This document shows, one piece after another, positions 7,621 to 24,550 of a stretch of 64,000 bases of DNA (its first letter is position 1; each line of letters starts with the position of its first letter). The notes below the pieces were generated by a model. The model made no database searches and had not been told where the DNA came from. It was given only the letters and a program-made list of their open reading frames with translations. Position numbers and translations under genes: made by a program. The stretch covers positions 869,001 to 933,000 of the forward strand of contig BRXU01000020.1 of the NCBI GenBank assembly GCA_030267565.1, given 5' to 3'. Source of the stretch: Pleodorina starrii (taxonomy: Eukaryota > Chlorophyta > Chlorophyceae > Chlamydomonadales > Volvocaceae).

Positions 7621-8340
7621 CACCCCTACTCCCGTTGCGTCACGTACGGCAACAGAGTACGAATTGGGGGGTCCCCGTTGGCCAATACACGACTAGTGCA
7701 GCGTGTGTTGTCCCGCGCCCCTAGATTCGTTGTGGTGGTTACAGTTACAGTGGGCTCCAGACTCCAGAATTTCATTGTACTGGTGAACTATGGTGGTTCT
7801 GGATTGGATGGCCTTCTAGGCTCTCTGGTACGGTAGGTTACACACACACTCGCCCGAATCAAGGGATGTAATCATCTTTGTGCTTCGAAATCCCCACCTC
7901 CATACCTCCCTCCTCCCTCGTAGTAAACTCATTTGATCCAAGCGAGGATCATTGCTGATACCAGTTCGTTTTCAAAGTCACCCATCCCACACCCGAAGCA
8001 TCAGCGTGGATGCATCAAATTGTAAAATCCCGAGCAGCTTGCACGTCTGCCTTTCGCTGACCGTTGTACCTGCATGCGCGGCGCGGCCCTGTGCGGAACA
8101 TGTGAGTAACCCCCTTCAGCTTGTCGGGTATTGAGCTGGGTTTGGGGTCGGGGATACACTTCCTCTCTTCATGGGTGCCGCACAGGGCGCGGAACTACTC
8201 CCGAGACGCTGCCGCAAGCCCCGCCCTGTCGTACATGAAACTTGAGAAGTTGGCCTACCGTTGGCGAAAGCGTTATGGCCACGAGCTTCCTAGCGGCTGG
8301 GACGGGCCACTCCACCGCAGCACGTTCCTGGGCAGTCAGG
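7621..8340. other. spacer left of the retrotransposon, with a coding-like fragment
   Basis: No complete gene. From about 8185 to 8340 one plus-strand frame reads as charged, coding-like protein (containing KLEKLAYRWRKRYGHELP). It runs directly into the left end of the retrotransposon and does not resume to its right. It may be an exon or an older transposon fragment cut by the insertion; no family is recognised. Confidence 0.35.
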
Positions 8341-8844
8341 TGTCACGCCATATCGTGTGATTGCCATAGAACGTGGAGATGCTGAGAACAGTTGCCTAAT
8401 TAGTAAGAACCGTTGTCGGTTAGTTAGGAGCCGTTGGGTGTGGCCCCTTCGGATCAGCTTCCGTGCACCGTTTCCGTGCGACGACAGAGTCGTCGACACT
8501 TTGTTGTTATTACATTTATTTGTTGGCATTATACGGGGCACCGACTGAGCAAGAAGCAATGCAGTGCGGGTTCCCCTGGAGGTACGAAAAGTGCATTGCG
8601 CGGGCTTGTTATAGTCCGGCGGCCGTGCGAGACACCTTATCTGTGTCTCGCACTTTGCAGTGTTAAGACTCTAAGTAGCATACAGTCACAGATCCGCGAT
8701 TGACAGACCGCGTGACGCAGTCTTTGTAAGTTCTTTCGGTGATCCGTTTCGGTAATCCGTCCTCCGAGGAGGACATCGTGCCCAGGTCGCCCTAGGAGAG
8801 AGCTGCGTAGCTCGTCTCCCGAAGGCGCGTGCTCTTCCGTCAGT
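8341..8844 (+). repeat. terminal repeat A1 (left)
   Basis: 504 bp, apparently identical to 24047-24550. Starts TGTCACGCC. It includes a perfect 11-bp stem with 7-base loop (8625-8635 pairing with 8643-8653). The same 11 bases recur just past the end of A1 at 8843-8853. Unlike the right copy, A1 is not followed by the B sequence. Confidence 0.9.
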
Positions 8845-9092
8845 GCGAGACACAGATTCCTGTCGCCCGACAGGATCTGTCGCCGGCATCGTTGGCTGTC
8901 TTCACCTCCTTCGGGCCAAGCCTGTTTCGAGAGTAATTCCAAGTTTATTCAAGAAGTTAATCCTCGCGTCAAGCGCGACAGCCGCCATTAGTCGGGCCCA
9001 AGGCCCCTGCATGTGCGGTTAGCCGGAGTCAAGCTCTCCCTCGTCCGCTTCGCGTCAGCCCCAAGGGTTCGATTGGTCTTTCATCGGTCGTT

Positions 9093-9297
9093 GAGGCTCA
9101 AGGCCTTTGTTGTGGGTGGCTCAAGGCCCCTGCACGTCATCTGTTCGAGGCGTTCTGGTTTGATTGTTTTTCGAGGCTCAAGGCCTTTGTTGTGGGTGGC
9201 CCCAGGCCCCTGCACGTCTTCCGTTTGAGGCGTTCTGGTTCGTTCGTGTTTCGGGGCTCAAGGCCCTTGGTGTCGGTGGCTCAAGGCCCCACCCGTG
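9093..9297 (+). repeat. 80-bp tandem repeats in the retrotransposon leader
   Basis: Units start at 9093, 9173 and 9253, giving about 2.6 copies with a few substitutions. Each contains CAAGGCC followed by GTGGGTGGC and CAGGCCCCTGCACGTC or close variants. A more degraded copy may precede at about 8996. The repeats lie upstream of the polyprotein and do not look coding. Confidence 0.75.
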
Positions 9298-9937
9298 CTG
9301 TGTGAGGAACTAAGAGCCCCAGGCTCGGCTGGTTGCGCTGGCGGACGACCAAGACCCTCTTGTAAATCGCGTCCGCCTTCATTCTCCTGTCCGTCCTGAG
9401 CCGCGACTCCAACCTGCGCCGTCCAATCAGCAGCTTCCGCCGCGTCCAATCAGTGAGCGGGAGGGGCGGGGCAGAGTTACAAGGAGTCAGTCAGGGGGGG
9501 GCAATCTCCTGCAGCTCGGGGATCGAGGGCAGGCAGAAGAGCAGCAGTCCGGGCAAGCGGGCGTTCAGGCCCTGCCTAGGAGGGCAAGTGCTCAAGGGGT
9601 TCTCGCTTCTCTTCTGCGCGGTGCGGCAGGCGCCCTTTCGCCTCAGCGAGGATCTGGGTCACGTGCGCACTCGCGCGCAGACAGCTTAGAAAGCGGAGAG
9701 CTTCCTGATCTAGCCAACAACCCGTTGCACCTGCTGGGGGTGGGTGACAGCGAGTCTGACGCCGAGAGCCAGCAAGGGGAGAACGCGAGCGCGCAGGCAG
9801 CAGCACAACAGCCGCCGCTTGGCTTAGGAGCAGCACCCGTCGCACCAGGCCATCTCCCGGCTGCCGGTCCGCTTCCTCCTCCCCCGTACGTTGATCCGCC
9901 TCAGGCAGTAAACCCTGCGTACGACTCAGACGACGAC

Positions 9938-11961
9938 ATGGACGAGCATCCGACGTCCACCTCGGCTCGGGACTTCTGGCCCATGGAGCCGTGGAGCCAT
10001 GAGTCGCTCCCGGCCATGCGGCGCTTCATGAACAACCTAGTTATGCAGGCGAGCAGACAGCAGCGCTGCTCGCTTACGCAGATTGATGCCGAGTCCATGA
10101 TGTACTTCCTTAACCAGGCACCGAGGCTCACATCGCGGTTCGAGCACTACCACAACGATATCAGGGCAACCCTGATTGAGAAGGCCACCGCGTGGCTGCG
10201 GTCCAAGCCCGGTCAAGCCGGCGCGACCCTGTATGGCCACCTGCTGGCCGAATACTACATGGAGCAGCTGCAGCAGCACTTCGAGCCGGAGAAGAAGGGC
10301 GAGTATCGGCAGCGCTACGCCAAGTTGGTTCAGGCCAACGTGGCGCCAACGGCCTACCTGCAGGAGGCGCTGAGCTACAAGCCGTACCTTGGCATCAGTG
10401 ACCTCGAGTTCGCAACCAACTGGGTACAACGGCTCGACCCAACGATCAACGACCGTGTCTTGTCCAAGTGGGGCCTGGTCACGCAAGATGACTGGTTCGG
10501 ACGCCTCAGTGAGATCGCTGCGGATGCGGAGACAGCTTGGAACAACCAGCGGTTTGCCGCCGCCTCTGCCGTCTCCACGCAGCCCGCCGTGTCGCCGGCA
10601 ACCGGCCAGCCCTCTTCGTCGTCGGCGGCAGCATCGCAACCGCCCAAGGCGGCGCGGCCCAGCAGCAGCGTCAGCGCGCTCCCGGAACAGAGCGCCAGCT
10701 CCAGCGCCGGCGCCAGCGTCAGCGCAGGCTCCTCCAAGTCGTCGCGTACCAAGTACTACTGCAGCACTCACGGCTGGGGCGGCCACACCACGGAGCAGTG
10801 CCGGCGCGGTCAAGCCGCGCTGGCCTCGGCGAGTGCGGCGCCCGGCGCGGATCAGCTCAAGGGGCTAATTGAACAATTTTTGGCAGCGACTGGGCAAGGG
10901 CCCACAGGGGCCGCGGCTGTGACCACTCCGGCGCCCACCACCAAGTGGCAGGCGGACCGCGCCAAGCGCCCGGGACAGCAGCAGTCCGCTCAGCAGCAGC
11001 AGGGAGCAGGCGGAGGCGCGGGTGAGTCGCGCCCGCGCTGCGACTACTGCTCGCGGCTCCACGCCGGCGTGTGCTTCATCCGCAACCCGGAGCTGGCGCC
11101 GCCCAACTACCGGGCACCGTCGGGCGTTCTGCAGGCCGCGTTTGACAACAACCTGCAGGCGTACCGCGCGCGGCAGCCGGCCCAGCCTGCGCAACCCGCC
11201 CAGCCGGCCCAGCCTGCCCAGCCGGTGCAGCCGCCGGCGGTGGCGGCGACGGCGCAGGTCTTTGACGCCTACGGAGAGGAGCTTTACGCGCCGGCTCACC
11301 CGGCGCTCATCACGTGCCACGGAGCGATCTGCTGTGGGCAGCAGGTGGCCGGCGGCGTGAGCCTCGAGGGCTCAGGAGCAGCCTGCGCCACGCTCAAGCA
11401 GCAGCAGGTGCCGGTCAGCTTCACGCCGGCGCCCATCCCGGAGATCAGATTCACCGCGCCCAAGGCGCGGCCAAAGCCAGCGACGGCCACCGAGGGAGGT
11501 GGTGACCGGCTGACCGGCAAGATCACGCTGGAGATCCCCTTCCCGCTGGACTACGGACAAGATTTCACGGTCCGGCTGCGAGCCATGATGTCCGCGCTCG
11601 GCCTGTCCGAGGGCGCTGACGCGGCGCCAACCGAGTCTCTTGAGGAGCCGGCGGCGGGCGCAAACAGCAGCAGCGGCAGCCAGCAGGCGGCCCAGCCGCA
11701 GGCCGCCATCCAGAGCAGCGGCGCCGAGGCGCCCACGGCAGCGGCAGCTGCCACAACGGTTACCCCGGCGGTGCAACACCGTGCGGCAAACGGTGTCAAA
11801 TACTACGTCTGCGGCGACCCCCAGGGGCCCTTCGCCACCATCAGCAGCCTGGCGCCGGAACGCAAGCAGCAACTTCTGGCGGCGAACGCGGAGGCACGGA
11901 GCTACTTTGGCTCTGAGCCGCACATGTTTTACTACACCGACGGCAGCATTGGAGTGGCAGC

Positions 11962-11993
<32 letters not shown>

Positions 11994-14311
11994 TGCTTTG
12001 CCACCCGCAGAGCCTACGGGACCACAGCGCCACCATCAACCTCATCACCGAAGCGATGGTGGAGGCGCACGGGCTGCCCGTGCGGCCAACGTCCAGGCAG
12101 CTGGCGACGGGAGCGGTCAAGGTGGCGGTGACGCACGAGCTGGTGCACGAGCAGCTCAGCGTGTGCCTGCTGCCGGGGTCACGACACGCGGTGCGTGTGC
12201 CCATGACGCCCACGCTGGTCGTCCCAAGAACGCATCTGTTCGACTTCCTGATCTCGAATCCGCAAATGCAAGCTGTCGCGGACTTCGTCACTACGTATCC
12301 GTCGCCGCAGCTGCACTTCAGGCCAAACCTGCTGGAGCACCCGGACCTGCTGGTAACCGTTCCCATGCGCAACGCACCAGGCGTGCGCCCGGCTTTCGTC
12401 AATTGCTCCGCTGCCTGCTGCACCAGCTTCTGCTCGGCGACCGACACGAAGCTGGGGGGGGGATGCAACAGCAGTCAGCAGCACAGCGGCAGTCCGGACA
12501 GCGGCATCCCGGCCGACGGCAGCGGGCCGCCCGGCATCGTGGGCGCTCCATCGCCCTGTTCCGGTTCGGAGCCCCAGGCTCCGCGTGTCAGCACCAGCTC
12601 GGCCAACGGCAGCGGGTCGCCAGGCGCCCAGGGCGTTCCCTCGCCCCAGGCTCCGGCCGACGGCAGCGATCACCAGCAGCCAGGCAACCGGGAGCCCAGC
12701 GGATTCCTGAGCAGCCTCACCAGGCCCGTCGCGTGGGCCAACAGCAAGGTGCTCAAGGGCGCTGAGGTACTCTACGGGCAACTGAGCAAGGCGGAGGTGG
12801 TGTACAGTGAGCCCGAGCGCCCGAGGCGCGAGGGCAAGCGCAAGAAGCGCGTCACGCGGCAGCCGACCACCATCGTGAGCGCCAAACGCACGTGGACAGC
12901 GTGGCTCTCGCTCTTCATCGTCGCGGCGCTCCTGGTCGCATTCTCAGCGGGCGTCGGGGCCACGGGAGGCTCCCACTGCGGCGAGGTAGGGCTCCAGGCC
13001 ATGCGGCAGATAGGGGCAGTTGGTGTCGCCTTGAAAGGCGCGAATGTCAGCTTTGCGGAAGCGCAGTCCGACCCGTCTCACCCGTGCGGCGCGGGCCAAG
13101 CCAGCGCGTTAGCCGCGGTTGACAGCTACTCTTTTGATGGGCGTATGGCGGCGACTGCTCATGAGTTCTACGAGAAGGACGCGGATGGCGGCTGGATCTG
13201 GGGCAACGCGCGCGACTTCGACCCTGCGCTCAAGGCGCGGCTTCAGGCGGTGGTACGCGACCGCAAGGGCTCGGCTTTTGCTTACAGCATGGATGAATTG
13301 CCAGGCTACAGCGGTGATCTGGGGCCTTTCCGGCTCAATCTGACCGCCACCAAGCCTGTCGTGCAGTCCCCGCGCCGCTACAGCCCCAAAGAGACTGAGA
13401 TCATTCGTGAGAAGACCGCCGAGCTGCTCAAGCCCGGCATTTGCGTTGAGTGGACTGGTCCTACTCTTGCTGCGGTCAACCCCGTCATCGCCGCCAAGAA
13501 GGACGAGGCTTCAGGCCTCTGGACCGCCGCACGTATGGCCCAGGACTATCGGCCTGTCAACAAGGTGACGGAGCCGGACAAGTACGGCCTGCATCGTCCG
13601 GAGGACATCTTTCAACGGGTAGGGAAGGCCCGTTTCTTCTCCAAGCTGGACATGCGGCAAGGCTTCCTGCAGATTCCTGTCCATCCCGATGATCAGGGCA
13701 AGACGGCGTTTTGGTGCGGCAACCGCCTAATCGCCTACACCCGCATGCCCTACGGTCTTAAGAACGCGTCCGCGGCCTTCCAGCGACGTATGGACTACGA
13801 GCTGCGCAAGGGGGGGGTGGATCAGTGGGCCGTTGCTTTTATTGATGATGTTTTGATCGCCACCGACACTGCTGAGGAGCACGTGGAGGCGGTCGCTCGT
13901 GTGCTGGATGTGCTCAACGCGTGTGGGCTCCGCGCTCACCCGGACAAGTCCATCTTCGGCGCCGACGTCGTGGAGTATTTGGGTCACAATTTGTCTTCGT
14001 TTGGCATTTCGCCGCATCACGCCAAGGTCGCTGCGATCCTTGCGCTGCCCCCGCCCAAGAACGTCTCGGAGCTGCGCACCCAGCTTGGTTTTATCAACTA
14101 CTACCGCTGCTACATCCCGCGGATGAGCGAGCTGGCCGCGCCCCTCAACCACCTGCTCAAGGCGGGTGTCCCCTGGAGGTGGGGTGCGGAGCAGGAGCAG
14201 GCGCACGCGTCTCTCAAGGAGACCATCTCGCGCCCGGACGTGGTTCTGCGTCGCATCGAAATAATAATAATAATAATAATACGCCCGACCGGAGGCCGAG
14301 GCGTGGGTTAA
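9938..14311 (+). pseudogene. retrotransposon polyprotein, part 1: gag, protease-like, reverse transcriptase (cut by LINE)
   Basis: The first in-frame ATG is 9938, although the frame is open from 9314 with no ATG. Domains by residue: capsid-like Gag about 80-200; Cys/His cluster (CSTHGWGGHTTEQC) about 272-290; a second CxxC cluster near 368; retropepsin-like block near 693, where the usual D(S/T)G is DHSA before TINLI; a predicted membrane segment about 986-1008 (LSLFIVAALLVAFSAGVGA); then a Ty3/Gypsy reverse transcriptase with LDMRQGFLQIPV, MPYGLKNASAAFQ and catalytic FIDDV near 1302. The frame is intact to 14259, then reads into the LINE tail and stops at 14311. Joined with 19730-23897 in the same phase it would encode about 2,829 residues, so the element was coding-competent before the LINE arrived. 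Confidence 0.85.
14161..14259. repeat. 99-bp target-site duplication, left copy
   Basis: Identical to 19631-19729. It duplicates retrotransposon coding sequence at the reverse transcriptase/RNase H border and flanks the LINE on its 3' side. Confidence 0.9.
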
Positions 14312-17300
14312 GGGAGCAGAGGAGGTGGGGTGACGGGTTTCCCCGGTCCCAGTCCTCCCCCGCCACCGCGGTGGGGGTTGAGAACGAGTGTGTGTTGGTT
14401 ATGTGCCCGTCTGCTGTGGCGTCTCGTGCGGGGCGCGTTCCATTTGCCGCCGGGTGATCACAATCTTGTTGAGCGCCCGGACAGCGTGATCGTGGAGTTC
14501 GTTGCAGCATGTTTTGGCCGCTTCGCTGCCCGCCCCTAGGGTGCGGAGAAGGGGGCGTAAGTCTTTTCGGATGGTACCGGCGAAGCCTAGGCTGATGGCC
14601 TCCTGTGCTGTGTAGCAGACTTTCCATCCCTCCTTCGTGAGGAGCTTGGCTAGCTCGGTGTGTTGGTGGGCTTTGTCGTGTTGTTTCTGATTGTGGTTGG
14701 AATCTGCTGTGTATCCTATTTCTATGATGTGCACGGTGTGCTGACTGGGGTCCGGAGGTCCCATGTATTCGGCCTCTTGTGCCTCATTGAGAGGGATGCT
14801 AGGGATGAGGAGTAGATCGGGGCGCATTTTGAGCCGTTCTTCCTCCGGGGTGTTTGGGAGCAGCCAGTGCGGTAGTCTTGTGCCTGCTACATAGTCCGGC
14901 CGGTCGTCTGCGGGGCAGGCGTCCATGACCGTGTAGCAGCCCCCGTTGATTCCCCGAGCGAGCGTACTGGTGATGGTTTGAACCGCCTGATTGTGCCGAA
15001 GAATGTATAGGGCGCGCATCCGTGGGTGGCGGCAGCCACCCAGGATATGCCCCCCGGAGTCGGGGTTGTGGCACAGGGGGCAGCTTCCTGACGCAACTGG
15101 GCCTCCCGGGGCCAATGATTTCCTGAAGCGGTTCGCGAGCTTGGCGTTCCATAGTTGGCCGTACAGGTAGTCGAAGCACCGTTTGGCGTGCTTGTGTCGG
15201 CCTATCTTGCGCTGTAGGGTGCGTGCGCTGGCGTTGATGTCCAGGTCGGGTATGGTATTGGCAACAAACTTCATGTAATCTGTCTCATTTGTGTAGCCCG
15301 AGTGCGTTTCCGGACGCACTAGGGCTTCGATGCCCCGGTTGAGGTCGTTGGCAAAGTGCCCAGCATTCTTCTCAGGCCCATGTATCTTCCGTAGCCACCA
15401 GTATTGGTTACGTGGGTTATTGTCAGATGTTTCGGTTGTGCTCAGTGCGTCGGGGTCGAGCTTTGCAAGGCCTCGCGCGGCCCGTACGGCTGCTTTATCT
15501 GCTGCTTCGTTGTATTTCACGCCAGTGTGGGCTTTTACTTTAAGTAGGGAAGTTGTTAAATTGCATGCTGCTCTCTTTTTAAGAGTAGTGACTATCTGCT
15601 CAAGCAAGGCCTTATGTTTGCTGAGCCGGAGTTTCTGTGGGTTATTGATCATCTTTTTTATTAGGTAAAGGGCTGCGGCTGAGTCCGTCCAGATGGATAA
15701 GTGGGTGTTGTCCTCAGGCGTGCCTCTGCGCATGTAGAGTGCTTGGTGGATGGCACTTAGTTCACACCTCGTGATGGTTTGGCAGCCATGATGTCCAGCA
15801 TTTACATCGATGTGGAGCGTCTTATTGGTGAGTGCGTCGACGGCCGCGGCTCCCAGTATTTGTCGTTCCTCGTCGCCATCCTTTACCTTTTGAACAGATC
15901 CGTCCGTGTAGATTGCGTTCTGGGAGTCGTATCGCAGCGACTGCTTGGCGTGGAATGTCCGGAAGACGGCCTGTCGCTCAGCAGAGGTGAGGTTGTCGCA
16001 CGGACGGGAGAGTACCGCCGCGGCGGGTGGCCGGTCGCTCATACTGCGCACCCGTGTCCGCACCCACTGGGGCGGGTTCCAGGGGTGGGAGGGCTCCATG
16101 GGGGCGGCGGTTGCAGCCGGCATGCCAAGAGTCCGACGGAGGCGTTCGGCGTGGGTTCGACCAGTTGCGTTGCTGACTAAGAGAAGAGTGAGGCCCATCG
16201 GGTAGGGTTGGGGGGTATCTTCAAGGGTTTCACTGTACAGGCTGGCTGTGCCCGTGAACGCGTCGATTCTGCCGATCATAGTGACCAGCGGGTGGGTGAG
16301 GTAACGGGTATATGGCGCCGTTCGAGCCGTGGGCAGCAGGAGGAGGGTGGCGGTGGGTGTGCTCTCAGACCGTACTGTCTCGGCCCATCCCAAGGCCCAT
16401 CTTAGGGCGTGATGCCCCTCCTCCGGCGTAGGCTCGGGGTGGGCGATGGAGAGGCCTGTGAATGGCTGCGTATATGCATCGTGGTTCGCCCCAAAGAGCT
16501 GGTCCTCTGAAAAGCGTGAATAGTATGTATCTACGCAGTCGGCTACATTGAGGGGGGATGCAAAGCGTTCGGTTGTGGCGCCGAGCGCGGTCGTGAGGCG
16601 CTTCATAAGTGCTTCGGGCAGCCGGCGCTCGTTTGCCGCTTTGACGGGTTGCAGTTTGGTGCCCCCGCCGTTCCGGTACCGCAGGAGGAGGCGTGCGACG
16701 TCTTCCGCAAAGCCGCCCCTGGCGGCGAGTCGGGCATGGTCTTCCGGGCGGTTCTGCTGCGCGTCTTGGTACCTGTACCACAGGCTGCGGAGACGACAGA
16801 CGGAGATTGGGCCTACACAGTTGCCTTGGGGGCCGTAGACGAGGGCCAGTCCGATGGTCTGCAGTCCTTCAGGTATGTCCCCGTCACCCTCCCAGGGTGT
16901 TCCGCAGAGGGGGCCGTTGTGTTTGCCGATCTGGATAGTGTAACGCCCTGTGGGGTAGATGTCCTTGTCCGGGTTGCCCGGTTGGACGTTGATTTCGACA
17001 AACTGTCTGAGGAGGCGCTGCCCTCGGGTCGTGTTTAGGCATTCGGTTTCCCATCGACCTTGTTGTTGCCTATCCGTCAGGTGCTTGTCGCGTGTCTCCG
17101 CCGCGCGCCCCGGGTCATGTTCGGCTTCCTGAGCGCGTCGATCCCGGAATGCATTGAGCAGTTCGATCCAGTTATCTTGTTGGGCCAGACGCGTGCCCTC
17201 GTCTTCAGTGGGCGCCCAGTCCACTTCGACTAGGCCCACCTGCGGTGGTGTGCCGTTGGGAGGCGCATGGGGGTGTACCGCCTGGGGGTGGTATCCGTTG

Positions 17301-19630
17301 GCAGCGTAGAGGGTGAGGGCTCCTTTGGTTACTGCCGTGCGTTCCCAGTCGACCAGGTAGTAGGTGCGGTGGGTGCCTTGGCTCGGTGGGTGGATTGTGC
17401 GCTGCTTCTTTGGGGTCGGTTTGTCGACGGCGACCCGTTTACGTATTTCTGCGTTGATGCACGCCACCCTTTCCTGGTCTCCGAAGAGGAATTGCGTGAT
17501 ACTGATTCCATACCGCGCCGGGACCTCCGCAGGCCATGGTTCCTCGCCCAGCAGCATCTGGAGGAGCCGTTCGGCGGAGCCGACCCTGGTTAACAGGCCC
17601 TTGTGGTGCGGGTGGCGTAGGAGCACTTCGCAATGTTGGATGGTGAGTGGGGTGTGTCGGGGGTTCCAGCCGATGGCGTCGGTGTCCACGATGCCCGTTA
17701 CCGGCTTGAGGTTTTGACGCAAAAGGTATGCTTTGAGGCGGTCACGGTCGGTTAGCCGCCGTGGCTGGTGTTGCCGGGCGTGACATCTATGCTTCGAGCG
17801 TCGTGTGGTGGGATCTGCCGTCGCTCCCCCGGGCGGCGTCGGTTGGGTCGCCTCGTTGGCGGTTATCACGCCTGGGGGTGTGGGGGCTGTGTCGGCGTGT
17901 GCGGTTTGCATGGCTTCGACCGGGTCACGGGGCTTCGGGGCGAGGTACTTTGTTATGCGTCCGTACGGTATGGGTTTGGGTCCAGCCGCTTCGTCGGTTA
18001 GGCCGGTCAGGCCGGGGTTGTCTGGAATGAGCCGCAGCTCGGGGGGTAGAGATGTGGATCCGCGGTATCTGGGTGCCCGAGCCCGCACGCTGGGGTCAGC
18101 ATTCATGGCGAGACTGAGCTGGTTCAGGGCTATCGTATGGCGCGATCCCACGTTCCGGCCTCCGATTAGTTGCAGCTGATCGGTGGTGATGATGTGCGTG
18201 CCCGTGTTCTGATCCCTCAGGGCCCTGAGGTCGAGACCCAGCTCAAGCAGAGGTTGTACGCATCGGAAGAGGAGCGCAAGCGCCTTGGGTTCGGCCGCTG
18301 GGTTGAGAGATCCGATCAGGTGGGCGAGGCTGCTCATTGTCGTCTCGTATGCTGTCCCTTTGTCCGTGAGTTCAATCCCCGCCTCCCTCACGAGAGCGAG
18401 CTGTTTCAGTGTGGTGTAGAATTTGCATTCCCGTTTGAGTTCATGTGCCGGTACGGTGCCCATGTATCGACTTTGCAGGTGGAGGAGAGCTCTGGTCACC
18501 GCTCCGAGACGGCCGTCATCATTGAGGGAGAGGACGAGGGTCTTTGCCGCCCGGACGGCGTATAAGGTGCGTACGGTGCCAACCCCCAGGCCGAGCCGCG
18601 CGGTCGGGTTGAGAATGGCGCGGGTGGGGAAGCCCATCTTGAGTCTGTAGCTGCGTTTGGCTATGCCCGCGATTTGCGCATCGAAACTGGCAATGTCTTG
18701 TGGGGTGTACGCCATGGTGGGCAGGCTGTACGCCACGAAGGGGTGTATGAGGGTTCTGATCATGTTGATGCGTTGGTCGGGGGTCGCGAGGGAGCTCTGA
18801 ATGCCCCGTCCTCGTCTGTCGACTTCGGCGCGCACATAGGCCACTTGTTCTGCCCAGTCTAGCGTGGGGGTAATATGTACTCCCAGATACTTGTACGGCT
18901 GCGTGGGGGGTGCGTACGGGATAGGCGTGTCGTCTATTCGAATTTGGTTTTTCAGAAGGCGTTCCAGGGCGGTCTGGTATTTTTGTGTGCCGGGGCCTCT
19001 GCTCAGATCCTTGTCCGAGCGCGCGCGGCCATGGAGAATGCCTTGTATCTGGCACTTGCTCACGTTGACCTTGAGGGCCCCCCACCTCGCATACCGTTCA
19101 ATTTTTGAGCATTGGAGCCGCAGATCCGATACCGCGTTCGTAAGGATAACTAGGTCGTCAGCGAATGCCCCCGAGCTGAAGTGATGGCGATCGTTTTCTT
19201 CCGCCCGGAGGCAGCCATATCGGTACCCCCTGCCGCCGCTGTGCAGCCATCGTAGGAGGGGTTCCATGTAGATAATGAACAGGACGGGTGACAGCGTGTC
19301 TCCCTGGATCGTTCCGCGCTCAATCGCAATGTTCGCAGTGCATCCGTGCTCGGTTCGTATGCGTGTCGCGGCGTGCGAGTACAGGTTCGCAACCACCTCG
19401 ATGAGGTCATCTGGGTAGCCCAGGTCGTACATGATCATAAGCAGTTTATCATGATCGATGGTGTTGAACGCGGATGTGAAATCAATATAAAGGAGGAACA
19501 GGTCGCGCCCGGTAAGGCCCGCGTCCTCGATAGCGTGCAGCACGTTCTGGATTTGCCGTTCTGTGTTGCGCTGCCGGAGGTACCCTTCCTGGGCCTCGGT
19601 AAAGATGTGTGCTTGCTCGCTGTAAGTTAC
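14260..19630 (-). mobile_element. 5'-truncated Dualen/RandI-like LINE
   Basis: Non-LTR retrotransposon inserted in reverse orientation in the Gypsy polyprotein. Its 3' end is the low-coordinate side and finishes in a short (ATT)n tail (14260-14281 on the plus strand). Its 5' end stops inside the reverse transcriptase domain at 19630, so the upstream part of the element is missing. It is flanked by 99-bp duplications, far longer than the 5-20 bp usual for LINEs. Confidence 0.85.
14399..19630 (-). pseudogene. LINE polyprotein: reverse transcriptase, RNase H, zinc finger, endonuclease-like C-terminus
   Basis: Open for about 1,743 residues from the truncation point, with no internal stop. The reverse transcriptase begins mid-domain (TEAQEGYLRQRNTERQIQN), then YIDFTSAFNTIDHDKL, GDTLSPVLF and catalytic FADD. 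An RNase H domain follows far downstream, starting IYTDGS (near 15900) with CELSAIHQAL, WTDSAAALYLI and KVKAHTGVKYNEAADKAA. After it comes a zinc-finger block CPLC...H...C.H (15017-15088) and a C-terminal block with RPDLLL and HIIEIGYT that resembles the restriction-like nuclease of R2/Dualen elements. The stretch between reverse transcriptase and RNase H (roughly 900 residues) is unassigned. The Dualen assignment rests on this domain order; it is inference. Confidence 0.75.
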
Positions 19631-19729
19631 GGCGGGTGTCCCCTGGAGGTGGGGTGCGGAGCAGGAGCAGGCGCACGCGTCTCTCAAGGAGACCATCTCG
19701 CGCCCGGACGTGGTTCTGCGTCGCATCGA
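19631..19729. repeat. 99-bp target-site duplication, right copy
   Basis: Identical to 14161-14259; the second half of the Gypsy polyprotein resumes in frame at 19730. Confidence 0.9.
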
Positions 19730-22700
19730 CTACAGCAAGCCGTTGGTTCTACACACCGACTTCTCCAATCGCGGCATCGCAGCGGTGCTGGGTCAGCTGG
19801 ACGACAACGGCAACGAGTACATGTGCGCGAGCATCAGCCGTTCGCTGAACAAGCATGAGGCGAATTACAGTTCGTACAAGGGCGAGATGTTGGCGGCCGT
19901 GTGGGCGATGAAGATGTTCCGGCACCACCTGATAGGTGCCGACAAGCCCTTCAGGTTGGTCACTGATCACCAGCCGCTGCTGTACCTGATGAGCTCCGAG
20001 GGCTTGACGGGTCAGTACGCGCGCTTCGCTCTGGTACTCCAAGAGTACAACTTCACCGTCGAGCATCGCCCCGGGGTGCTGCATCAGAACGCGGACGTGC
20101 TGTCACGCAACCCCGTCGCCAGCGCCGTGGATGATTCCGGCGCCCGCATCGACGATGATCCCGCCGAGACCGCCGTCACCCCTGCTATCCTGGCGTCAAG
20201 CGCCAAGTCTTGTGAGGTTCTCAGCGTCGCGCTTCTGTCGGCCCCAAGGGTCGCTCCCTTCTGCGAGGATTTTCTGCCGTCTCCCGAGGAGATGGCGTTT
20301 GGCTGGAATGGCTGGGCTTACGAGGCGGCGTTCCCACCGCCCAGCGATCCGGCGGAGGACGTACAGGCTGAGCGAGACGGTCTGCGCAGCGTGGCCCGAG
20401 AGTGGAACGCCACACGCAAACGCCGCTGTCAAGCAGCGGCGGGCTCGGCGCGCTCCGGGTCCCCATCACCGTCAGCGGCAGCTGCAGCCCAGTGGTATGA
20501 TCAGGCCATGCGGGAGGGTGTGGTTGTGTATGAGCCGCTGGGCGGATTGGCGTCAGGGCTCGAGGCCTGCCTCCGCAGCGGCGTGCCAGTGCGGTCCTAT
20601 TTGTATTCTGACGTCAGCGAGCAGGCTCGAGGCCTGGCGCTGCGCCGTTTCCAGCAGCTGTCGGATCGTCACGGAGACCTTTTTCCGCCAACAGCCTGGG
20701 GCTCCGCGCTCATCGGTCTTCCGCAAGACGTGACCAAGGTCACCGCAGCCGAGCTGCGCGCAGCGATTCCCGACAGCCTTCCGGTGCTTATCATTGCTTA
20801 TTGGGAGCCGGACGACGTCAGGGCTCAGCAGGCCGTGTTGCGAATTGTCAGCAGTGCTCAGAGCGCCCTAGGCGCCGAACGTGTGAGATTTTGTTGTGGT
20901 GCAGCCGTCAGGGTGGGTCCAGCCCCCCCGCAGGAGCAGCCGTGCGCGGATAGCTTGGTGTGCGAGGCATGGGGCAACCCCGTGCTTGTTGACGCGGCCC
21001 GCCTGGGGTCGGGCGTCCATCAGCTGTATCGGACCTGGAGCAACTTGACGGACATGGAGCTGCTGAGGGAGACTCTGTCAGTCGCCACCCGCCCAGCGGG
21101 CCCCAGCGTTCAGCAACGTCTTCTGCCCGGTCGAGCGGCACCAGTGGCGCAGCAGCAGCTGCGGCCGCCCTTCTATGCGTCCGAGGCGCAGGGGCAGCCA
21201 GTCAATGCAGTCATGCACGCCGCCGTCTCAGCGGATTCAACCGGGGCGGCGCCAAGTGCAGCCTGCCCTGTCAGGGATGGCGCTTCCAGTGTCTACACTT
21301 CGCTCAAGCTCGAGGAGAGTGAGGTGCTGTTGGGATTTCTTCAGGGCTCAACCGAGTCGTCTCGTGTCAGTGACCAGCAGCGCCGAGCGCTGCTGGCTAG
21401 CGCAACTGATGTGTGTTACTTGTCTAGTGTCATCGCGGTGGGCAGGGTGCTTGCGGCGGAGGCAACCTCCGCCCTCCCTGCGCACATTGCTGCAGTCAAC
21501 GTCAGCGCCCCGCAGCCGGGCGCCAGCTTCTGTTCAGCTCTTTCTCAGCGCGGTCAAGCCGTGCCCAACGAGTTCGTCGTCTTCGCCACGGGCGCGCTTG
21601 ATCCCGAGGGCGGCGCCGATGCAGGCCCTGGCTTGGAACCGTGGGCCGACCAGAATCTGCTTACCCTGCTTCAGACCGGACAGCTGCCCCAAGGGCTCTC
21701 GGAGGCCGAGGTGAAGCGCGTCAAGCGACGCTCGCAACGGTACAGATGGCAGGGTGAGCAGCTTTACGTGATGGGTCTCGACGGCCGCACCCGCATCGTT
21801 CCGCGCCCCGCCGAGCGGGGTGAGCTGGTGCTGAAAATGCATGAGCAGTCAGGCCATTGGGGCGTCAAGCGCACCGTGGCTCTTCTTCTTCATACCTACT
21901 GGTGGCGGGGCATCAACAACGACGTCGCCGAGACGGTGAGGCACTGCGCCGCGTGCAGTCGCGTGAGGGCAACCTTCACTGCGCGGTCCGGCGTGCTCAA
22001 CCCGTTGCCTATCGGCGGACTCTTCTACCGGTGGGGCGTGGATCTCTGTGGTCCGTTCAACACGACTGCCCAAGGCAGCCGTTACGTCATGGTGTGTGTG
22101 GAGCATTTTAGTAAGTTTGTGGTTCTGGTTCCTTTGCCTAGCAAGCATGCGACGGAGACAGCCTTCGCCTTTCGTCAGCACATTTTGGGCCGCTACGGCG
22201 CGTGCGCGGAGGTCTGTACGGATCAGGGCAGCGAGTGGAAGGGTGAGTTTGCCAGCTGCCTTCAAGAGGCGCTTATCGATCACCGGCAGACGTCAGCCAA
22301 CCACCCCCAGGCCAACGGGCTGAGCGAGCGCGCGGTTCGTTCGGTCAAGGAGGCGCTCACCAAGATGGCCAACGCCAGCGGCAGCTACGCCAACTGGGAT
22401 GAGCAGCTGCCGTCCATCATGCTTGGCTACAACTGCTCCGTGCAGGATTCCACCAAGCTGTGCCCTTACACCATCGTGCATGCGGTTGACCCAGTCATTC
22501 CGCCAGCAATAAAGGACAGGTTCAGCCCCGACCTCAATCTGGACAACCCCGAGGAGGTCGCCAGGTCGGTTCTGGTCAGGGCAGCCGCCGTTCGGAAGCA
22601 CATGGCTATTGCGGGAGGCAACCTCTCCGTGGCCCAGCACCGTGATCGCCTTCACTACGCACGCCTGCGCGGCGGAGGCTTCGATCCCACTTTGCGCAAG

Positions 22701-23897
22701 GTCGACATTGGTGACTACGTGTACTACCGCAACACCACCGCCCGCAGCAGCTTGGAGGCCGACGCTCGGCCCGAGATCCTGCGTGTGGTAGAGACGCGCC
22801 CCTCAGGGGTGGTCGTGCTGGAGGGCAAGTGCGGCGGGCGTCTGACCGCCCACGTCACTCACGTGGCTCCGTGCCACCTGCCCATCACCGACGAGCAAGT
22901 TGATCCGCGGTTGGCCAAGCCGCCGCTTACCCTGGCCTGCGAGGTTTGCCGTATGCCCGACTCCGAGGAGTGGATGCTGCTGTGCGACTCGTGCGGCACG
23001 GGTTGGCACACGTACTGCTTGAGGCCGCCGCTGGAAGGGGTCCCCCAGGGAACCTGGATCTGCGGCAACTGTCAACGCAAGGGTATCACCGAGCAGCAGG
23101 TGGAGGCTCGCGGCGCGCAACGCGCCACTTCATCGCTGCAGCCCCCGCCCTCTCTCGCTAAGCTTCAGGGTGCTTTCGCCATGCGGGCGCACCGGCGCGG
23201 ACGCTCGCGCAGCAAGGCGGAGGCGGGCGTGGTCATGTACGCCGGTAAGATACGCAACGTGCATCATTTTGTCATAGAGTATCCCGACAAGACGTCCGAG
23301 CTCGTGAGTCTCAAGGACTTGCGGCCTCGTCTCGTCGTGCCTGGCGCCCAGGAGCCCGCAGCAGCAGCGTCGGCCGTGCAGCCGGCGCCGCCCGTAGTCA
23401 TCGATGCTCAGCTGGCGGCAACCGCCAGCGAGTGCGCAGCGCTCGCCGAGGTGCTGGATCTCGGCAGCGCGCTCAGTGTCTTCGCGCCCGTGGGACTCAG
23501 CGAGCAGACCGCGGGATGGGTACGACAGCAGGGCTGCGTCCTGCGCCGCGGCGCAACCGGGGCCGGCCCAGCCGCCCTAACCGCGGGGGAGCTGGCGCGC
23601 GCGCGAGAGAACGGGGTTGATGTAGGAGTATTGATGGTGGAGAATGTGGTCTCTGATGTAGGTTCAGTGCTTGAGTTGGCGGCAGCGCACGCCCGCGAGG
23701 CGGCGGTGGCGCGTGTTCCGCGTGAGTATCTGTGGAGCGCCGGGGAGGCGCGCCTGCGCTGGCTCCGAGCCCGGCAGGCCGATGGGCGTTTGATGATAGT
23801 GCCCTGCGCTACCTGCATCTGGTTGGTGTTGCTTGCGAGCGGCAAGCGCCGCCAGGGGTTCATTAAGCGCACCGTCGCACCCATGCCCGTCTTCTGA
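19730..23897 (+). pseudogene. retrotransposon polyprotein, part 2: RNase H, methyltransferase-like domain, integrase, PHD finger
   Basis: Continuation of the frame ending at 14259. Order by position: RNase H of Ty3/Gypsy type (19730-20110, with HTDFSNRGIAAVLGQ and TDHQPLLYL); a region resembling a DNMT3-type cytosine methyltransferase (about 20515-21430) whose Pro-Cys and Glu-Asn-Val motifs are absent; integrase HHCC zinc domain (21841-21960); DDE core with VDLCGP (22036), CTDQGSEW (22213) and Glu in NGLSERAVR (about 22324); PHD finger, Cys4-His-Cys3 (22939-23074); a Tudor/chromo-like segment (VMYAGKIRNVHHFVIEYPD, about 23230-23330); and about 160 C-terminal residues of unknown fold. Stop at 23895-23897. 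It has no start of its own, because the LINE separates it from gag. Confidence 0.85.
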
Positions 23898-23998
23898 GGG
23901 GCATCCTGTTTGTATGAACTGAGCATTTGTTGCCGTGCCACGACACATGCCTGGCAGCCAGCACTCTTCCGGCGGCTTCGTGCTGGGGGGGGGATTGC

Positions 23999-24046
23999 CA
24001 GTTAGCCACATCAGCTGGTCGACGGCACCTTAGCTGGCGTGACAGC
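23999..24046 (+). repeat. terminal repeat B1 (internal copy)
   Basis: 48 bp starting CAGTTAGCC and ending GGCGTGACAGC, identical to 24547-24594. It lies directly before A2; the B1/A2 junction forms a perfect 22-bp palindrome at 24035-24056. Confidence 0.9.
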
Positions 24047-24550
24047 TGTCACGCCATATCGTGTGATTGCCATAGAACGTGGAGATGCTGAGAACAGTTG
24101 CCTAATTAGTAAGAACCGTTGTCGGTTAGTTAGGAGCCGTTGGGTGTGGCCCCTTCGGATCAGCTTCCGTGCACCGTTTCCGTGCGACGACAGAGTCGTC
24201 GACACTTTGTTGTTATTACATTTATTTGTTGGCATTATACGGGGCACCGACTGAGCAAGAAGCAATGCAGTGCGGGTTCCCCTGGAGGTACGAAAAGTGC
24301 ATTGCGCGGGCTTGTTATAGTCCGGCGGCCGTGCGAGACACCTTATCTGTGTCTCGCACTTTGCAGTGTTAAGACTCTAAGTAGCATACAGTCACAGATC
24401 CGCGATTGACAGACCGCGTGACGCAGTCTTTGTAAGTTCTTTCGGTGATCCGTTTCGGTAATCCGTCCTCCGAGGAGGACATCGTGCCCAGGTCGCCCTA
24501 GGAGAGAGCTGCGTAGCTCGTCTCCCGAAGGCGCGTGCTCTTCCGTCAGT
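24047..24550 (+). repeat. terminal repeat A2 (right)
   Basis: 504 bp matching A1 (8341-8844) at a constant offset of 15,706 with no difference seen by eye. Together with B2 it makes a 546-bp unit with TG...CA ends. Confidence 0.9.

Follow-up and report, generated by a model that had tools for sequence, protein, structure and literature searches.

What could keep a DNA methyltransferase domain in a retrotransposon after its catalytic residues have gone? The question is raised by a Gypsy element in a 64,000-nucleotide stretch of the Pleodorina starrii genome (contig BRXU01000020.1, positions 869,001 to 933,000; referred to here as the window), whose Pol contains a DNMT3-type block. Our answer, held with about even confidence, is that this block, under selection without its catalytic residues and with a predicted DNMT3 fold, acts as a protein scaffold similar to DNMT3L, helping the integration complex to engage host chromatin. 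DNMT3L is the mammalian DNMT3A cofactor (PMC10625200), a catalytically inactive DNMT3 relative that is defined by binding active DNMT3. A preliminary description from the letters alone had placed a catalytically dead DNMT3-like domain at 20515–21430, between RNase H and integrase. The location stands, with limits that are slightly wider (about 20472 to 21497), and all of the motif strings it quoted are present in the plus-strand frame 19710–23897; RNase H lies before the block and the H2C2 and rve domains of integrase after it. The relevant features are as follows.

19728..20048, plus strand: RNase H domain of Gypsy pol (PF17917, E 1.2e-28)
20472..21497, plus strand: DNMT3-type methyltransferase domain without catalytic residues (profiles, predicted structure, relatives that keep the active site, purifying selection)
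20808..20810, plus strand: codon at the catalytic-Cys position, Pro here (alignments; 14 columns of the loop after it are absent)
21807..21971, plus strand: integrase H2C2 zinc-binding domain (PF17921, E 3.3e-14)
22029..22307, plus strand: integrase core, rve (PF00665, E 6.1e-8)
22938..23072, plus strand: PHD finger (PF00628, E 1.3e-10)
23319..23894, plus strand: C-terminal Pol domain, predicted to be Rossmann methyltransferase-like and degenerate too

Taken alone, the window domain matches no Pfam family, and a phmmer search of PDB returns a single weak match (E 0.33) to a non-DNMT methyltransferase, so its identity as a DNMT is not demonstrable from this one sequence. Comparison with copies of the element, as the preliminary description had proposed, and with relatives proved to be necessary, the DNMT3 match emerging only with sister sequences in the query. 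The first such profile, of six rows (alignment A1, the window domain with its sister sequences), run against 177,635 distinct PDB sequences, matched 26 of them up to E 10, all of which are DNMT3A, 3B or 3C. The best whole-sequence E is 6.9e-6, reached through three colinear blocks that are individually weak (E 0.097, 340 and 33) and are the same three that the preliminary description had assigned to DNMT3. With a 17-row profile (alignment A3) DNMT3A is matched at E 2.4e-17, and C5 methyltransferases account for all 45 PDB hits at E ≤ 0.01; the other enzymes score lower, with 4onj/4onq ('DNA methyltransferase') at 3.6e-12, DRM2 at ~1e-7 and HhaI at 2.8e-4 at best. Among solved C5 enzymes DNMT3 is closest to the domain in sequence by these profile scores. 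With hits accepted as far as E 1, PF00145 was matched by nine of the 17 A3 members and TIGR00675 by 11 of them, the window domain being in neither set. Structure prediction gives a confident DNMT3-like fold, as the preliminary description had expected, and the DNMT3A/3B catalytic domain is the best match in both structure and profile, although the window domain lacks its catalytic Cys, Glu-Asn-Val and Arg-x-Arg. Judged from the profile scores the DNMT match exceeds chance, and the block is predicted to retain the DNMT3 methyltransferase fold.

The domain is widespread in the P. starrii genome (136.06 Mb, 95 contigs), where the window domain as query finds 64 places at E ≤ 0.01. These include family A (13 copies, 96–100% identical), family B (8 full copies, 35–38%), family C (3 copies, 31–32%), and the more distant families D (~16 near-full places in this search) and E (10 full copies when searched with its own sequence). 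Identity between sister families falls to 22–34%, and Gly, Asp-x-Ala and His columns are invariant across the sister sequences in the alignments. A protein search with family B, which scored the 7,997 candidates with most shared words, returned 29 relatives with a weakest E of 1.8e-17, and the species labels among them include P. starrii (P0005), Monoraphidium neglectum (P0030), a label read as Chromochloris zofingiensis (P0025), and a bacterial metagenome-assembled genome (P0014). The last, labelled Minisyncoccia bacterium, reads as a Gypsy Pol of the same algal clade, and its label is probably contamination. Five of the relatives were scanned with Pfam DNA_methylase; P0013 (1.9e-9), P0026 (2.5e-6) and P0027 (7.3e-10) pass the cut-off and P0007 and P0017 fail it. 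In P0027, which has Pro-Cys-Gln and Glu-Asn-Val, the DNMT domain precedes reverse transcriptase rather than occupying the RNase H/integrase slot, which could mean either that the domain has moved or that it was captured separately. At G000:C5:2034439-2097171, short and disrupted fragments of the family C domain are numerous over 63 kb, apparently forming a tandem array. Outgroup reading covered two more distant Gypsy places; L076 (integrase 31% identical) has no insert between RNase H and integrase, and L075 (integrase 36% identical; G000:C10:3067300-3069000) has no DNMT-like domain in the stretch read. Read by eye, L075 carries a PHD finger in the RNase H/integrase slot, where the window element has its DNMT-like domain.

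Comparison of 36 domain rows (P0019–P0022 are near-copies) shows the departures in the active site. The window reads W-E-P-D-D at the catalytic position where relatives have W-[P/E]-C-Q-D, such that Pro replaces Cys and motif IV is Glu-Pro, and 14 alignment columns are absent from the loop that follows. Gly-Ala-Ala stands at the motif VI Glu-Asn-Val position and Gln-x-Tyr at the motif VIII Arg-x-Arg position, whereas Gly-Gly of motif I and the Asp residues of motifs II and III are retained; the preliminary description was thus correct in reporting both the Cys and the Glu-Asn-Val as missing. Motif IV Cys is present in 26 of the 36 rows, accompanied by Glu-Asn in all 25 with letters there and by Arg-x-Arg in all 26, and Cys-bearing relatives with an intact active site occupy the same Pol slot as the inactive domain. 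Five of the Cys-bearing rows have the classical Pro-Cys (P0013, P0018, P0025, P0027 and P0032), 20 have Glu-Cys, and one has Ser-Cys. The Glu-Cys form (e.g. P0007, P0011, P0017), with Glu-Asn and Arg-x-Arg kept, is an unusual active-site variant. The ten inactive rows (the window, P0001, P0002, P0005 [family B], P0010, P0033, C, D, D2 and E) have neither Glu-Asn (0/10) nor Arg-x-Arg (0/10), and the Cys survives in only one, family C, without the other residues. Active-type copies were sought in this genome with the P0018 domain, which gave 93 matches, all placed in families A–E or among fragments (sorted by eye by position); a DNA pattern for Gly-Trp-[Pro, Glu, few others]-Cys-Gln-Asp gave no hits, there being no positive control and other spellings escaping the pattern. 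Within this scope neither search turned up an active-type copy.

Selection was assessed from the ratio of nonsynonymous to synonymous changes per site (N/S), counting each variant once in 37 full copies: 13 of family A (three with identical domains), 8 of B, 3 of C, 4 of the ~16 near-full places of D, and 9 of the 10 full copies of E. Partial or broken copies (L014, L026–L030, L041–L044) and D2 (L032) were excluded. The ratios for families A to E are 0.30, 0.13, 0.30, 0.36 and 0.20 (binomial p against neutrality 6.3e-8, 2.3e-10, 0.021, 6.2e-4 and 1.8e-14), and the two wrong frames, used as controls, give 0.58 to 5.11, with eight of the ten values at or above 1.00. None of the 37 copies contains a stop codon; choosing full copies favours open frames and should not in itself reduce N/S. 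Earlier pairwise ratios downstream were inflated by shifted copies, and the final test drops copies with stops. The RNase H side of family A was not used (six copies, ratio 1.05, with large apparent divergence, unchanged without the LINE-bearing window copy). By these counts the domain is under purifying selection though it has no catalytic residues, the check that the preliminary description had called for.

Loss of the active site does not map to one event on an integrase tree of 33 rows, in which nine of the ten inactive rows are represented and P0030–P0032 and D2, lacking integrase, are not. The inactive state requires four changes, at least two of them forced by well supported branches, in a tree whose bootstrap had not converged. 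A, P0001, P0002, P0010 and B, all inactive, form one supported group, and D, E and P0033 lie in another part of the tree next to Glu-Cys members. In a second tree of 31 rows, with the long branches P0004 and P0027 removed and the bootstrap again not converged, uniting the nine inactive rows was rejected (p-AU 0.005, approximately unbiased test; the grouping was defined by active-site state after sight of a first tree). We note that C5 methyltransferase chemistry requires the catalytic Cys and the changes are for this reason read as losses; on that reading the active site was lost more than once in this Gypsy clade.

Because the predicted fold is retained and selection persists without catalytic residues, a non-catalytic role is indicated, and the reading in the preliminary description of a degenerate yet retained domain with a binding or structural role is supported. 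The domain adjoins integrase, and a PHD finger lies beyond, which suggests an adaptor of the integration complex facing chromatin. An ancestor of this chlorophyte Gypsy clade would have captured an active DNMT3-like enzyme, catalysis would later have become dispensable in several descendants, and an interaction surface would be what selection preserved; beyond integrase, the PHD finger and another methyltransferase-like domain may be further chromatin-facing modules of the same Pol. Binding of protein appears more likely than binding of DNA, because the inactive domains are more negative (median net charge -4 in 10 rows, range -7 to +2, against +4 in the 23 Cys-bearing rows >330 aa, range -5 to +10) and their loop downstream of the catalytic position is shortened.

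Several points weigh against the DNMT3L-like scaffold. The window sequence by itself matched no DNMT model. The charge ranges just given overlap, and closely related sequences make up half of the inactive rows. SAM (S-adenosylmethionine) binding by the window domain is possible, because it still has the Gly-Gly of motif I and the Asp of motifs II and III. Integrase is under stronger constraint than the domain in four of the five families (integrase N/S of 0.04, 0.19, 0.08 and 0.14 in A, C, D and E), with B reversed (0.17), so part of the domain may be drifting. A DNMT3L has an active DNMT3 partner by definition, whereas no host DNMT3 gene was found using PF00145 in an exon-by-exon search of limited reach. 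Over the whole genome PF00145 gave two weak sub-cut-off pieces at one locus (C1:5825818) and failed to detect any of the Pol domains, which surveys relying on Pfam are therefore likely to overlook. That locus (L073, G000:C1:5825818) is a host gene that appears to contain introns. Gly-Pro-Pro-Cys-Gln and Glu-Asn-Val are readable in it by eye; on these motifs it is a C5 methyltransferase, and we take it to be DNMT1-like.

The same host gene bears on a different explanation, that the inactive domain is an anti-silencing decoy, binding or titrating host methylation factors and so shielding new copies from silencing. Inactivity under selection would fit a decoy and the host has at least this one gene with the Pro-Cys and Glu-Asn-Val of a C5 methyltransferase, but the sole host enzyme located looks DNMT1-like rather than DNMT3, and Pol is usually produced in smaller amounts than Gag; we consider a decoy unlikely, though worth keeping in mind. 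The predicted DNMT3 fold and the adjacent integrase could also be taken to mean that the domain still grips DNA or cDNA without methylating it, but with the catalytic loop in the window short of 14 columns, Arg-x-Arg missing from all ten inactive rows, and an acidic window domain (net charge -5, pI 5.4), a DNA-binding module seems improbable.

Two further explanations give the domain little or no function. If the stretch between RNase H and integrase had to supply nothing but length and solubility, divergence of the sister families to 22–34% identity would be expected, but a spacer does not account for the invariant Gly, Asp-x-Ala and His columns, N/S below the off-frame controls, or a confidently predicted DNMT3-like fold, and we think it very improbable. 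Hardly any weight goes to a dying domain, decaying passively after catalysis had gone. The weaker constraint relative to integrase is in its favour, but all 37 full copies are free of stops (13, 8, 3, 4 and 9 for A to E; full copies having been chosen), N/S within families is 0.13–0.36, and inactive A, B, P0001, P0002 and P0010 are one supported integrase group, so that an old loss outlived by the domain is the simplest reading.

The remainder of the window element consists of the following features.

8337..8844, plus strand: 5' long terminal repeat (LTR) of the Gypsy element, 508 bp, 99.8% identity to 24043–24550
9725..14311, plus strand: first part of the gag-pol frame (open from 9314), cut off from the remainder by a long interspersed nuclear element (LINE); RVT_1 E 2.2e-22
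13526..13993, plus strand: reverse transcriptase domain (Pfam RVT_1, frame residues 1268–1423)
14161..14259, plus strand: 99-bp direct repeat, left copy, 100% identity to 19631–19729
14399..19726, minus strand: LINE open frame inside Gypsy pol, its start reaching into the right repeat (RVT_1 E 4.6e-21, RNase_H E 6.8e-13)
19631..19729, plus strand: 99-bp direct repeat, right copy, identical to 14161–14259
24043..24550, plus strand: 3' LTR of the Gypsy element (LTR pair comparison)

The element spans ~8337–24550, its exact LTR ends and target-site duplication being left approximate, and with 508-bp LTRs that are 99.8% identical it is probably a young insertion. The LTRs and the order reverse transcriptase, RNase H, integrase are those of Ty3/Gypsy elements; in full, Pol runs reverse transcriptase, RNase H, DNMT3-like block, integrase zinc domain, integrase core, PHD finger and C-terminal domain. 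The motifs of the C-terminal domain are degenerate in the window and better preserved in P0007, P0016 and P0023. The window copy is split by the minus-strand LINE, which lies between the 99-bp direct repeats, likely its target-site duplication. This LINE matches Pfam PCIF1_WW (E 1.3e-7, residues 1004–1081), PCIF1 being a family of cap m6A methyltransferases, and has GLSIAHPEP where an NPPF motif might be expected; it may be a further case of a degenerate methyltransferase-like domain carried by a retroelement.

Capture of DNMTs by retrotransposons is already known. Passages of PMC5890265 describe it for a charophyte and for dinoflagellates; the key residues are reported as conserved, some of the domains as active, and the specific role of these DNMTs is there called unclear. 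KnitGypsy-Dnmt3 of Klebsormidium nitens is similar in having a DNMT3-related domain in a Gypsy Pol under purifying selection (Ka/Ks < 0.2), but it is in a charophyte and the same passages report its key functional residues as conserved, whereas here the host is a chlorophyte and the representatives of all five families found lack those residues. SymbioDIRS-Dnmt3 and SymbioLINE-Dnmt of Symbiodinium are likewise retrotransposon-borne, the DIRS domains being of the Dnmt3 family, but these are DIRS and LINE elements with key residues conserved; the SymbioDIRS domain methylates CG and the tested SymbioLINE domain did not methylate DNA in yeast (PMC5890265, same passages). A ChloroDNMT lineage of green algae is named in a passage of PMC12344493. 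In the titles and abstracts searched we found no report of chlorophyte Gypsy elements with an inactive DNMT3-like domain, most subscription journals being outside the search. On these comparisons, what is new here is the inactive, retained DNMT3-type copies in chlorophyte Gypsy.

DNMT3L shares with the window domain a DNMT3 fold (predicted here) without catalysis, retention for a non-catalytic role, and a PHD-type reader in the same protein. It differs in that it is encoded by a host gene and has an ADD domain at the N terminus, immediately preceding the methyltransferase-like domain, whereas here the domain is part of Pol and the PHD finger (22938–23072) is beyond integrase. More tentatively, and as a possibility rather than an expectation, green-algal Gypsy elements may have evolved a DNMT3L of their own from a captured de novo methyltransferase that was inactivated repeatedly and is now a selected non-catalytic adaptor, which with the PHD finger and the C-terminal methyltransferase remnant would link integrase to host chromatin or disarm host methylation. 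Within a single clade the active site persists in some members and has been lost from others, with the domain still under selection, and this is a natural contrast. What the domain does in that Pol slot with and without catalysis can thereby be told apart, and the question becomes testable by integration and binding assays.
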